From Sphingobacteriaceae bacterium (GTDB taxonomy: Bacteria; Bacteroidota; Bacteroidia; Sphingobacteriales; Sphingobacteriaceae), in contig CANHGR010000005.1 in the NCBI GenBank assembly GCA_947460875.1, forward strand, positions 62,001 to 126,000: a stretch of 64,000 nucleotides of DNA, read 5' to 3'. The translations under genes were made by a program, and so were the position numbers. Numbering within the stretch: position 1 is the first letter of the stretch; each line of letters begins with the position of its first letter. This document shows positions 24,440 to 29,255 of the stretch, piece by piece. The notes under the pieces were generated by a model. The model was not told where the DNA came from and searched no databases. It worked only from the letters and a program-made list of their open reading frames with translations.

Positions 24440-24486
24440 AATTAACATATTTCCCGACAGCGGCACTAAAATTCGTAAATCACATA

Positions 24487-25095
24487 ATGCGTTACAACAA
24501 TATTTTAGAAACGATTGGAAATATTCCCTTAATAAAACTCAATAAAATAACCAAGGAAATTAGTGCTACAATTCCAGCTAAAATCGAGCCTACTAATCCG
24601 GGCAATTCAATAAAGGATCGAATGGCTCTTTAACTAATAAAAGATGCAGAGCGGAATAGAGAATTAAAACCAGGCGACAGATAATCGAAGGGACATAGGA
24701 AAACACAGGCTTGGATTTAGCGATTGCTGCAGCGATCAAAGCATATACATGCATTTTAACCACCACGGATAAAGAATCAAAAGAGAACGTCGATGCCCTA
24801 CGCGCCCTTGGAGCACAAGTAATTGTTTGCCCAACCAATTTTGGGCCCGAAGATCCAAGCTCTTATTATTCTGTTTAGTCAAGTTTAGAACGCGAAACTC
24901 CAAATTCATGGAGCGCAAATCACTATGATAACGACTCCAATACTGGGGCTCAGTATCAACAAACCGATTCCGAAATCTGGGAACAAACGGAAGAGAATAT
25001 TACTCATTTAGTAGTCGATGTCGGTACAAGGGGAACTATCTCGGTGGCAAGAAAATATTAGAAATAAAAAAATCCAGCAACTACAGTATAGGGAA
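24487..25095 (+). pseudogene. Cystathionine beta-synthase / cysteine synthase-like pseudogene, 3' end missing
   Basis: The ATG at 24487 opens a frame reading NNILETIGNIPLIKLNKIT, with the PLP-lysine motif NPGNSIKDRMA. It stops at TAA 24631 after 48 codons. Homology continues across stops and frameshifts: LIKDAERNRELKPGD, then TTDKESKENVDALRALGAQ, then CPTNFGPEDPSSYYS, then ETPNSW.ANHYDNDSNTGA, then EIWEQTEENITHLVVDVGT. This is the fold-type II PLP beta-synthase order of a CBS-type enzyme. The middle SGNTG substrate loop is deleted or mutated. The sequence ends near KNPATTV and then merges at GID into an unrelated transporter fragment. No functional product is possible. Confidence 0.88.
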
Positions 25096-25557
25096 TTGAT
25101 CATGCTATTCTGATTGGAGCTATTTTTACGCTGCTAACCTTATTCCCTGTGTTGGCGTCCTCTCTGTAAACTTGCTCGGAGTACTTTAACGCTAACATCA
25201 TCTCAAGTGATTTGGCCTGTGCTTGCCGTCCTTGGAATTATAGCTTTTGTTCAGTTTTTGGACAATAATATCCTGATGCCAAGAATTATGGGATCTAAAG
25301 TAAAGATTAATGCTTTAGGAGCCATTTTGGGTGCATTTATCGGCGGTAGTATTGCTGAAATATCCGGGTTTTTTTTGTCGTTGCCGATTATCACTGTACT
25401 TAAAGTCATTTTCGACAGGTCAAAAATAGTGAAACATTGGGGAATGCTACTCGGCGACGAAAAGCCTGAAGAAAATCCGATGAATTCTAAGAACATGGCG
25501 CGTAAAAAAAGAAAAGATATAAAAGGACGCCCTTTTTGGAGTGAAATAAAAATTTAG
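25092..25557 (+). pseudogene. AI-2E family transporter pseudogene, 5' part missing
   Basis: After the cystathionine synthase-like remnant, the sequence encodes DHAILIGAIFTLL, then (after frameshifts) NLIPCVGVLSVNLLGVL, then LTLTSSQVIWPVLAVLG. From 25207 an open frame gives VQFLDNNILMPRIMGSKVKI and membrane segments with IITVLKVIFDRSK. This is the C-terminal third of the AI-2E (PF01594, PerM-like) transporters, with the typical QxxDNNxLxP motif. The N-terminal helices are absent. At least two frame changes and in-frame stops precede 25187. The last 116 codons stay open but would encode only part of a membrane protein. The stop abuts the stop of the next gene on the other strand. Confidence 0.85.
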
Positions 25558-25884
25558 TCAGGCCCCCACTTCCATCTCTTTTCTTCGCTTAAGCTCATCT
25601 CTAATTTCGGCACATTTTTCAAATTCTTCGAGCGATTTATTTATGGAAAGTAGCTTATATAGCTCTTTCTCCGATTTGTCTCGAAGTTCAAGAGGGACCG
25701 GGAGCCCATAAAAAAGAATTTTTACAGTCTCCATGAGGCTTAGTCGTGAAATACGTAAATAATACGCACATCCTATGAAAAGAATCAGAAGAAGTATTAA
25801 TAAAGGAATTAACGATGCTTTCACAAAAGTTCTATCGTCCAAAGTTAATAATTTGAACAATTGAATACTGACTTCAGTAGGCAT
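25558..25884 (-). CDS. Small membrane protein with UVR-like motif
   Basis: I do not recognise a named family. The 108-residue protein has one strong membrane helix at about residues 22-45 (LIPLLILLLILFIGCAYY) and a soluble C-terminal tail. The tail ends with SLEEFEKCAEIRDELKRRKE, which matches the UVR motif of UvrB/UvrC and McsA, a short helical hairpin used for protein contacts. Membrane anchoring of such a motif is uncommon. The ATG at 25884 is clear. Its 3' end directly abuts the pseudogene stop on the other strand. It diverges from the Anbu gene, with about 60 bases between them. Confidence 0.6.
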   Translation of the reverse strand: MPTEVSIQLFKLLTLDDRTFVKASLIPLLILLLILFIGCAYYLRISRLSLMETVKILFYGLPVPLELRDKSEKELYKLLSINKSLEEFEKCAEIRDELKRRKEMEVGA

Positions 25885-25945
25885 TGGTCTATGAGGAATA
25901 AAATTTAGCTATTTTCGGCCATTCAATTATAACTAGCAATTAATT

Positions 25946-26704
25946 ATGACATATTGTTTAGGCATTAAAGTAAAAGAAGGACTTATCGCTATTGCAGATA
26001 CAAGGATCACATCCGGTACAGAGACTACAACAAAAAGAAAATTATTTCTTGAACAAAAAGATCATCATTCTCTTTTTATAATGACCAGCGGCTTACGCTC
26101 TGTTAGAGACAAAGCCATCCTTTATTTTAGGGAACTGGTACAAGAAGCAGAATACAACAAACTCTATAAAGCAGTAAATGCCTTCGGAGATCAAGTAAAA
26201 CGTGTTGGAGAAGAAGACCGGGAATCACTTGAAAAAGCGGGATTAAAATTTAATTTAAATACCATCATAGGCGGTCAACTAAAGGACGACGAAGATCATA
26301 AGCTATTTCTGCTGTATCCTGAAGGCAACTGGGTTGAGCTCGGTGAAGGAGCACCATACGTTATTATTGGCAACTCCGGACATGGAAAGGCAATATTAAA
26401 TCGTACGCTAAACGAAGATTCAAGCATGGAATTAGCACTAAAAGCAGGCTTTTTATCGTTTGACTCGACAAGGGCTAGCGCTAACGATGTAGAATTTCCT
26501 ATTGATGTGGCACTTTATAAAAAAGACTCATTCAATATTGTAGAGCATCGGTATGAAAAGAAGGACCTAGAAGATATTTCAATCCAATGGGCACAAGAAC
26601 TAAAGACAGCTTTACAGCATATCCCAGAAAATTGGATGAATGCCGCATTCGACAAGTTAAAGAAAGTTGAGCAGTCTAATAAGACAGAACAAACAGGTAA
26701 ATAA
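25946..26704 (+). CDS. Anbu proteasome-like peptidase
   Basis: Self-assembling Ntn-hydrolase of the HslV/proteasome superfamily. The protein starts MTYCLGIKVKEGLIAIADTR. Removal of Met exposes Thr2, the expected nucleophile, and the SGTE and KR segments and the TSGLRSVRDKA helix fit the Anbu pattern. The 252 residues exceed HslV and match Anbu proteins. The C-terminal Lys- and Glu-rich tail is low in complexity. It is followed after 2 bases by a transglutaminase-like gene, a known Anbu neighbour. In the commonly reported clusters an ATP-grasp and an alpha-E protein also occur; neither is here. Peptidase activity has been hard to show for the family. Confidence 0.88.
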   Translation: MTYCLGIKVKEGLIAIADTRITSGTETTTKRKLFLEQKDHHSLFIMTSGLRSVRDKAILYFRELVQEAEYNKLYKAVNAFGDQVKRVGEEDRESLEKAGLKFNLNTIIGGQLKDDEDHKLFLLYPEGNWVELGEGAPYVIIGNSGHGKAILNRTLNEDSSMELALKAGFLSFDSTRASANDVEFPIDVALYKKDSFNIVEHRYEKKDLEDISIQWAQELKTALQHIPENWMNAAFDKLKKVEQSNKTEQTGK

Positions 26705-26706
26705 TT

Positions 26707-27552
26707 ATGAAATTCAGGATTGCGGCCGAGATGGAGTATGAGGTGAGTTCGCCGGGAACACTGATATTAAATATTCAAGCCTTAAAAACGTTTAATCAAC
26801 ATGTTTTAGAAGAATCGTTTAGCACTTATCCTTTTTTGGAAGCCGAGGAGTTAAGTTCAGAACAAAGTGAAAATCGTTTACTAAGACTTAACATTCCAGA
26901 AAATTGCACTTTCAAGATCTCGTATAACGCCCTTGTCGATAATTCCTGCAAATTCATCGACAAAGAAATTTTAACTGACGTACCAATCAAGGCGTTAGAT
27001 GCTGCTGTGCTTCCTTACTTCTATCCAAGTCGGTACTGCCAATCTGATAAATTATATAGAATGGCAAATAACAAATTTGGCCATATCGAAAATTCGTACG
27101 AAAAAGTTGTAGCAATTACCGAATGGATTCAAAGAAATGTTAAATATTTAAGTGGTTCAACAAATTCTCATACTTCAGCCTATGATACCGTTACAGAGCA
27201 AGCTGGTGTGTGCCGTGATTTCGCTCATCTTGGTATCGCTTTGTGCCGAGCGTTAACGATTCCAGCCCGTTATTTTACAGGCTATGCAGTTGAAATTAAT
27301 CCACCTGATTTCCATGCTTGTTTCGAAGCATATCTTGGTGGCGAATGGATAATATTCGACGCAACAAAACTTATCCCACTTAATGGTCTTGTTAAAATTG
27401 CAACAGGCCGCGATGCAACTGATACCGCAGTTGCCAGTATGTTTGGCAATATAATATGCACTCGCGTTAATATAAGCTGTTATTCGGCAGACGAACAATT
27501 CCAACCTTTCTACTACCATCCATCCGGATCAAGCGGTATTTCCTATTCATAA
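26707..27552 (+). CDS. Transglutaminase-like cysteine protease, Anbu partner
   Basis: Papain-fold protein of 281 residues without signal peptide, hence cytoplasmic. The N-terminal third (about residues 1-95) matches the beta-rich Bact_transglu_N domain. The core domain has the catalytic triad Cys169 in AGVCRDFAH, His203 in DFHACFEAY and Asp218 in WIIFDATK, so activity is likely. The gene is 2 bases after the Anbu gene, so the two are translationally coupled. In other bacteria it sits in the predicted peptide-tagging or degradation cluster with an ATP-grasp and an alpha-E protein. Here only the two protease-type members remain together. Confidence 0.9.
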   Translation: MKFRIAAEMEYEVSSPGTLILNIQALKTFNQHVLEESFSTYPFLEAEELSSEQSENRLLRLNIPENCTFKISYNALVDNSCKFIDKEILTDVPIKALDAAVLPYFYPSRYCQSDKLYRMANNKFGHIENSYEKVVAITEWIQRNVKYLSGSTNSHTSAYDTVTEQAGVCRDFAHLGIALCRALTIPARYFTGYAVEINPPDFHACFEAYLGGEWIIFDATKLIPLNGLVKIATGRDATDTAVASMFGNIICTRVNISCYSADEQFQPFYYHPSGSSGISYS

Positions 27553-27941
27553 CTTGCCATTTTTTCACAAATTTTAATTGGTGAATACGGAGTCAATTCT
27601 ACGTTAAGTTTAAAATTGGCACAAAAACTCAGAAATTATGTGATTTCTGTGGCTCGAATTAAGATATTCTACTATATTTTTAATTATTTTATCCAATTAA
27701 ACAGAATTAACTATTTTTTTGGCATATATTCTTATTTATTTTAATAATAAAAACAATATAAAAGGTATTTTTAAGTATTTTTACTTGTTTTTTAAAAAAA
27801 ATAAACAATAATTATTGAAATATTAAAATATTAATCTATTTTTATCGTATTAATTAGAAAAAATGCAACAATTAATTTTTTTTTAATGAAAAATATCTAT
27901 TATTCATATAAATTTTCACCAATCTCTAATCCCTACTAAAA
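27553..27941. other. Very AT-rich intergenic region upstream of amt
   Basis: No gene or RNA is visible in these 389 bases. The stretch from about 27690 to 27910 is almost entirely A and T, with runs of A or T. A 9-base inverted pair ATTGGTGAA (27577-27585) and TTCACCAAT (27915-27923) brackets it. I looked for a sigma-54 type GG-N10-GC element for nitrogen control and found none. The region may act through bent DNA or hold the amt promoter close to its 3' end. Confidence 0.5.
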
Positions 27942-29255
27942 ATGAAAAAAATCCTACCGTTTTCGATACTTGTTATCGTAGTAATTCTCGGACTCCTCTA
28001 TCCCGGTGTTGCACCAGCAAATGTTGAGGAAAGTACTCTTGACACAGGCGACACGGCCTGGCTTCTTGTATCAACTGCCCTTGTGTTATTAATGACACCA
28101 GGCTTAGCTTTCTTTTATGGCGGAATGGTTCAAAAGAAAAACGTGATTTCTACCATGCTCCAAAGTTTTGTTTGCATGGGCCTAATCACGGTAATTTGGA
28201 TAGTTTTCGGATTCAGTCTTGCATTTGGAGAGGACGTAAACGGACTTGGTATTATTGGCGATCCTTCTACTTTTTTCATGATGAAAGGAATGATCGGCAA
28301 TACTAGTTGGTCATTAATGCCAACAATTCCTATCGTTCTATTTGCTATGTTTCAATTAAAATTTGCAGTTATAACGCCAGCGCTTATAACTGGTGCATTT
28401 GCAGAGCGTATCAAGTTTAACTCTTACTTGATTTTTCTTTCTCTGTTCATGATCGTTATCTACGCGCCACTTGCACATGCGACATGGCATCCAGAAGGCT
28501 ACTTCTTCAAATTAGGAGTGCTCGACTTTGCCGGTGGAACTGTAGTACATATGTCTGCTGGCTGGGCAGCACTTGCCTCAGCATTATATCTAGGAAAACG
28601 TAATGTGACTTCACATACACCTGCCCGTATCAGCTATGTAATTCTTGGAACTGGTTTATTGTGGTTCGGATGGTTCGGATTTAATGCCGGTTCTGCAGGT
28701 GGAGCAAATGCCCTTGCAGCTACTGCTCTAGCAACAACTACCACCGCGTCTGCTGCTGCTGCAATGGCTTGGGTTTTCTTTGACATGTTTAGAGGCAAAA
28801 AACCATCTGCATTGGGTGCTTGTATAGGTGCTGTAGTGGGTCTGGTAGCAGTAACTCCAGCGGCTGGTTATGTTACTGTTCCACATTCTTTGGTTATCGG
28901 TATTGTAGCTGCGATAGTAAGTAACCTTGTTGTTCTTTTACGATCTAAGACTAATATTGACGATACATTAGATGTATTCCCTTGCCATGGTGTAGGAGGT
29001 ATGGTTGGTATGCTTTTAACAGGTGTATTCGCAAATCAGGCAGTAAACAGTGCAAATACAACAGGAAATGGCCTTTACTATGGTGAGACAGGATTATTTT
29101 TCATCCACTTGCTTGCTTTAGTTACAGTATCTGCATTCGCATTCTTTGGATCATTGCTTTTATTAAAAGTAACCGATCTTATCAGTCCGCTACGCGTTTC
29201 TGTTGAAGAAGAAAGTGCTGGCCTTGACTTAACTCAGCACCAAGAGGAATTATAG
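27942..29255 (+). CDS. amt: Ammonium transporter Amt
   Basis: Inner-membrane ammonium channel of the Amt/Mep/Rh family. The 437 residues begin with a signal-like helix (residues 1-26), then TAWLLVSTALVLLMTPGLAFFYGG, the conserved first core helix. The family signature DFAGGTVVHMSAGWAAL carries one pore histidine, and the second twin-pore histidine is in CHGVGGMVGMLLTG. Eleven membrane segments can be traced. No glnK/glnB gene adjoins it, which is unusual since these usually pair. The long AT-rich leader suggests complex control. A strong hairpin terminator follows. Confidence 0.95.
   Translation: MKKILPFSILVIVVILGLLYPGVAPANVEESTLDTGDTAWLLVSTALVLLMTPGLAFFYGGMVQKKNVISTMLQSFVCMGLITVIWIVFGFSLAFGEDVNGLGIIGDPSTFFMMKGMIGNTSWSLMPTIPIVLFAMFQLKFAVITPALITGAFAERIKFNSYLIFLSLFMIVIYAPLAHATWHPEGYFFKLGVLDFAGGTVVHMSAGWAALASALYLGKRNVTSHTPARISYVILGTGLLWFGWFGFNAGSAGGANALAATALATTTTASAAAAMAWVFFDMFRGKKPSALGACIGAVVGLVAVTPAAGYVTVPHSLVIGIVAAIVSNLVVLLRSKTNIDDTLDVFPCHGVGGMVGMLLTGVFANQAVNSANTTGNGLYYGETGLFFIHLLALVTVSAFAFFGSLLLLKVTDLISPLRVSVEEESAGLDLTQHQEEL

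Follow-up and report, generated by a model that had tools for sequence, protein, structure and literature searches.

In this study, we found that a Sphingobacteriaceae genome keeps an intact two-gene unit, Anbu-2 and the transglutaminase-fold protein TG2, and is the sole exception seen to the rule that Anbu-2 occurs with an ATP-grasp gene. On balance, we lean towards the reading that a ligase module was lost from this lineage and that the two-hydrolase unit persisted, probably working as a peptidase pair independent of partners, a function that we infer. Anbu is among the main candidates for an extant relative of the ancestor of the proteasome. The source genome has 2.21 Mb in 26 contigs (99.07% complete), about half the genome size of most relatives, and all positions given below without a locus name are those of the window, the whole 64,000-nucleotide stretch of DNA that was analysed.

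The Anbu-2 and TG2 genes

The Anbu gene (25946-26704, + strand) encodes a protein of 252 amino acids, recognized as an Ntn-fold threonine peptidase homologue by ORF calling, phmmer, alignment, and AlphaFold/Foldseek comparison. The ORF is intact and begins MTYC, with the start Met immediately 5' of the putative nucleophile Thr1 (ORF residue 2; codon at 25949-25951). Like Thr1, Asp17 (ORF residue 18; 25997-25999) and the equivalent of the catalytic Lys (ORF residue 32, Lys31 when counted from the nucleophile; 26039-26041), all on the + strand, are invariant in an alignment of 38 homologous sequences. The protein thus has the N-terminal Thr without a propeptide, the Asp, and the Lys that characterize Anbu, for which the literature numbering is Thr1/Asp17/Lys32(33) (PMC6376114). 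All PDB Anbu entries are matched by the protein in phmmer searches (E = 4.6e-33 to 2.4e-21), and the 31 top Foldseek matches of its AlphaFold model (pLDDT 91.4) are Anbu chains (best TM 0.83), with 20S proteasome subunits ranking below. The predicted model and the phmmer results together indicate an Ntn-hydrolase (proteasome beta) fold nearest to Anbu structures. Anbu-2 proteins, which are found in Bacteroidetes, Planctomycetes, and other groups, have a strongly basic S1 pocket for which an acidic cleavage specificity has been suggested (PMC5666114). In the protein studied here, the S1 residues in Thr1 numbering are I20, K29, T46, R50, and R53, a basic pocket, and the motif SGLRSVRD (26087-26110, + strand) lies in the basic S1 region by which Anbu-2 is distinguished, its Arg at ORF residues 51 and 54 being invariant in the 38 homologues. 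Based on clade and pocket, we assign the 252-aa protein to the Anbu-2 subtype.

The TG2 gene (26707-27552, + strand) lies on the same strand with 2 bases between the Anbu stop and its start, as a sequence-only reading of this DNA had reported. It encodes a protein of 281 amino acids with a predicted transglutaminase fold and a cysteine peptidase-like character, assigned by its profile matches (PF21295, E = 2e-30; PF01841, E = 8e-24) and by orthology to PDB 3ISR (E = 3.6e-114, 59% identity, TM 0.97). The catalytic triad of Cys169 (27211-27213), His203 (27313-27315), and Asp218 (27358-27360), all + strand and located by alignment of homologues, is invariant in 23 homologues; the triad is complete, as that reading had stated, and the combination of PF21295 and PF01841 with a Cys-His-Asp triad is that of the Bact_transglu_N_2 (3ISR) type. 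The same reading had taken this protein for the transglutaminase of the published Anbu operon, an identification which we rejected on domain content: both proteins contain PF01841, but the N-terminal domain is PF21295 in TG2 and PF08379 in TG1, and within this family it is TG1 that holds the operon's transglutaminase place.

The next + strand gene, from 27942, is amt (PF00909), in agreement with the sequence-only reading. It was considered as a functional partner and rejected, because no amt homologue lies near Anbu in any of 90 loci (fetched flanks, up to 8 kb per side) and an AT-rich gap of 389 bp separates it from TG2. A promoter and terminator scan of 25500-28100 gave no more matches than shuffled sequence. 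On the other side, upstream of Anbu (about 24480-25557, + strand), there are decayed genes, where a cysteine-synthase/CBS-like reading (LETIGNIPLIKLNKI...), an identity read from broken frames without a profile match, is interrupted by several stops and frame changes and runs into what is left of an AI-2E transporter (PF01594), 116 aa that match its C-terminal end only.

Co-occurrence of Anbu-2 with TG2 and with the ligase module

In 72 of 90 related loci, TG2 comes after Anbu-2, and 61 of these 72 have no ATP-grasp/alpha-E/TG1 module at the locus, which makes this the commonest arrangement (61/90). Judged from these sequence comparisons, the two genes are shown to make up a unit, Anbu-2 + TG2, that is conserved in Bacteroidota, and the earlier idea of a special, reduced two-gene operon was therefore rejected. 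Wherever the analysis extended to the rest of the genome (L035-L042), ATP-grasp, alpha-E, and TG1 were found elsewhere as a separate three-gene module. Since TG2 is not the transglutaminase that travels with ATP-grasp and alpha-E, and since the module is usually unlinked, the absence of these partners from the locus itself is unremarkable. All five genes are found together in 11 loci, either on the same strand as one operon (L032, L050, L095, L106, L110, L121, and L123) or head-to-head with the module facing Anbu (L074, L080, L088, and L099), and the two orientations suggest repeated joining or splitting of the two modules. No TG2 homologue was seen in the fetched flanks of the Dyadobacter Anbu-2 loci L087, L093, L098, L100, L103, L107, L108, L111, L113, L116, L118-L120, and L122, which indicates that the pairing of Anbu with TG2 is not universal.

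The sequence-only reading had noted that ATP-grasp and alpha-E are missing from the locus, and the same holds for the genome. Profile searches of the whole source genome found neither alpha-E (PF04168) nor circularly permuted ATP-grasp (PF14403; PF04174 was likewise absent, even at E <= 10), and TG1 (PF08379 + PF01841) is also absent, the single Transglut_core (PF01841) match being TG2. Thus the source genome has none of the components by which the four-gene peptide-tagging cluster is recognized (ATP-grasp, alpha-E, and a TG1-type transglutaminase). No unlinked operon with the other genes, which that reading had named as its refutation, turned up in this genome-wide search, although they are unlinked in most relatives.

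In contrast to the source genome, other Anbu-2-positive genomes proved to have ATP-grasp (PF14403) in every one of 155 tests (10/10, 69/69, and 76/76). These tests represent ~135 distinct genomes, about 20 having been reached twice as judged by identical contig coordinates, and leave out ~19 further Anbu-positive genomes; the wide survey covered ATP-grasp, and for alpha-E and TG1 the source genome and the fetched loci were examined. The reverse rule fails, as ATP-grasp occurs in seven of the 13 genomes of the family that were tested and lack Anbu; Anbu itself is missing from ~70% of the genomes in the family. Given this asymmetric co-occurrence, Anbu-2 looks dependent on the module, and the fact that it was never seen without ATP-grasp elsewhere suggests that it needs the module's product. 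A second PF14403 match, in an ORF of ~850-866 aa, was observed in genomes G379, G433, G459, G230, G449, G453, G455, G463, G374, G660, G684, G726, and G738, and some large genomes, including those of Mucilaginibacter and Dyadobacter, thus encode a longer, probably fused ATP-grasp protein.

Empty sites and the state of the retained pair

In a tree of concatenated Anbu and TG2, the source genome is placed beside Paradesertivirga, Arcticibacter, and related genera, though with a local support of only 0.72. The gene order in these sister genera is sigma(c5)-c9-c8-aminotransferase(c7)-ATP-grasp-alpha-E-TG1 in five of the five genomes examined (L038-L042), c7 being a class-III aminotransferase gene. 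In the interior of a 288-kb contig (L186, contig C1), the source genome keeps c5-c9-c8-c7 in order, with the module missing and with a 38-aa glycosyltransferase-like fragment followed by DUF58, thioredoxin, and dnaE genes downstream of the aminotransferase gene. The fragment (MKIAYISTYPPRECGIATF..., similar to a glycosyltransferase N-terminus; L186 9066-9179, - strand) ends the aminotransferase block at the point where relatives carry the ATP-grasp module, and is a possible deletion scar. A second site, at which Hufsiella carries the module between tatA and gatA (L035/L036), is collinear and likewise empty in the source genome (L187, contig C1). Here two tandem tatA-like genes (L187 11301-11700, + strand) lie between the c25 gene and gatA; in Hufsiella one tatA is followed by the ATP-grasp module. 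The possibility of a decayed module remnant at the two empty sites was rejected, since tblastn found none at either. The aminotransferase block, intact in mid-contig and lacking the module, makes a real deletion much likelier than an assembly gap, and we consider it highly probable that the module has really been lost from the lineage.

With the module lost, Anbu-2 and TG2 may be substrate-less relics that are intact only because little time has elapsed. Consistent with this, no Anbu-2 without ATP-grasp was seen among the ~135 other genomes, as compared with the seven Anbu-negative genomes that have ATP-grasp, and the small size of the genome and the pseudogenes directly upstream of the pair point in the same direction. 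However, the catalytic residues and the invariant positions are all kept in both Anbu-2 and TG2, and neither protein is accelerated: the distance from relatives, scaled to the distances among relatives, is 1.19 for Anbu and 1.04 for TG2 as compared with 1.05-1.59 for seven other genes, which gives no sign of relaxed constraint. Moreover, the lack of any module trace at either site would make the loss old if decay was gradual, and the presence of intact Anbu and TG2 genes beside decayed genes fits selective retention in an eroding region. Thus, we regard the relic explanation as rather unlikely, albeit the data favour retention over it only moderately, and whether the pair retains a function of its own seems to us an evenly balanced question.

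Alternatively, the ATP-grasp/alpha-E/TG1 module may be present in the organism, within a stretch missing from the 26-contig assembly. At 99% completeness, about one false absence per 136 genomes is expected, so that counts alone cannot separate loss from gap, and both the variable location of the module among relatives and the roughly half of the 52 contig tips that have no matching partner tip would leave room for it. However, about half of the tips have an exact or near-exact overlap with a partner, which implies that nothing is missing there, and the genes that flank the module in 23 loci of relatives have no orthologues at the 52 contig ends, the best matches being under 37% identity. Furthermore, each of the two places where relatives are known to carry the module, the sister-genus site among them, is complete and empty within a single contig, and we therefore consider a gap improbable. 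It is very improbable that the lineage never had the module and received Anbu-2 and TG2 alone from a relative by horizontal transfer: the absence of Anbu from so much of the family does imply that gain and loss are frequent, but the pair branches beside genera that also have the c5-c9-c8-c7 block and not inside Mucilaginibacter, and its divergence matches that of the seven other genes.

The pair without its module and known Anbu systems

In the scenario that we prefer, loss of the module with retention of the pair, genome reduction in the lineage would have deleted the ATP-grasp/alpha-E/TG1 module while the Anbu-2/TG2 unit stayed under selection. Anbu-2 and TG2 would then act as two co-translated hydrolases. 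Anbu-2 would form an open ring with threonine peptidase activity, and its basic S1 pocket predicts a preference for acidic residues. TG2, with its Cys-His-Asp triad, would serve as a peptidase or isopeptidase in the trimming or release of peptides and not as a cross-linking enzyme. Where the ligase module is present, as in most relatives, the two proteins may process or remove what it attaches, and in the source genome, where it is absent, their substrates may be endogenous or imported peptides. The stronger claim, that Anbu-2 and TG2 constitute a self-sufficient two-hydrolase peptide-degrading system in need of no ATP-grasp/alpha-E ligase and that this lineage is a natural deletion showing so, is one that we put forward tentatively, at slightly less than an even chance. 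If true, it would uncouple the function of Anbu from the peptide-tagging pathway that has been proposed. The sampled genomes present a near-absolute rule, in which Anbu-2 occurs only with the ligase module but not the reverse, together with a single clean exception. From the rule, one would expect the module's product to be what Anbu-2 acts on, and the exception offers a natural background for asking what Anbu-2 and TG2 do without it.

In the published four-gene operon of ATP-grasp, alpha-E, transglutaminase, and Anbu, found in Proteobacteria and others (PMC6376114, PMC5666114), Anbu also lies beside a transglutaminase-fold gene. Unlike in that operon, the Anbu described here is Anbu-2 rather than Anbu-1, the gene beside it is TG2 (PF21295) rather than the TG1 type (PF08379), and ATP-grasp and alpha-E are absent from the source genome. 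Anbu-1 has been described as an open ring (PMC5666114, PMC6376114). When the four-gene system of Y. bercovieri was co-expressed, no specific complex was found among the operon proteins; proteasome substrates were not cut by the Anbu proteins of Y. bercovieri, Hyphomicrobium, and P. aeruginosa, and cleavage of a peptide substrate has yet to be shown for any Anbu (PMC6376114). Proteasome inhibitors are bound by P. aeruginosa Anbu, but not by an Anbu-2 (PMC5666114, PMC6376114).

The closest known relatives are those of the Anbu-2 subcluster of Bacteroidetes, Planctomycetes, Verrucomicrobia, and Deltaproteobacteria (PMC5666114), which includes Cytophaga hutchinsonii CHU_3460. The Anbu described here shares 54-80% identity with the sampled Bacteroidota members and, like the subcluster, has two invariant Arg in the basic S1 region and retains the Thr, Asp, and Lys. 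The S1 residues listed for C. hutchinsonii Anbu-2, I20-A29-R46-R50-T53 (PMC5666114), share their basic character with I20-K29-T46-R50-R53 but do not correspond one-for-one, the positions being equated by alignment only. TG2 in turn is a full-length orthologue, without notable difference, of the C. hutchinsonii transglutaminase-like putative cysteine protease in PDB 3ISR. Unlike this genome, every tested Anbu-2 relative also has an ATP-grasp gene. The case is a variant of the known Anbu system, and what matters in it is that a small genome has lost a partner module that is otherwise constant.
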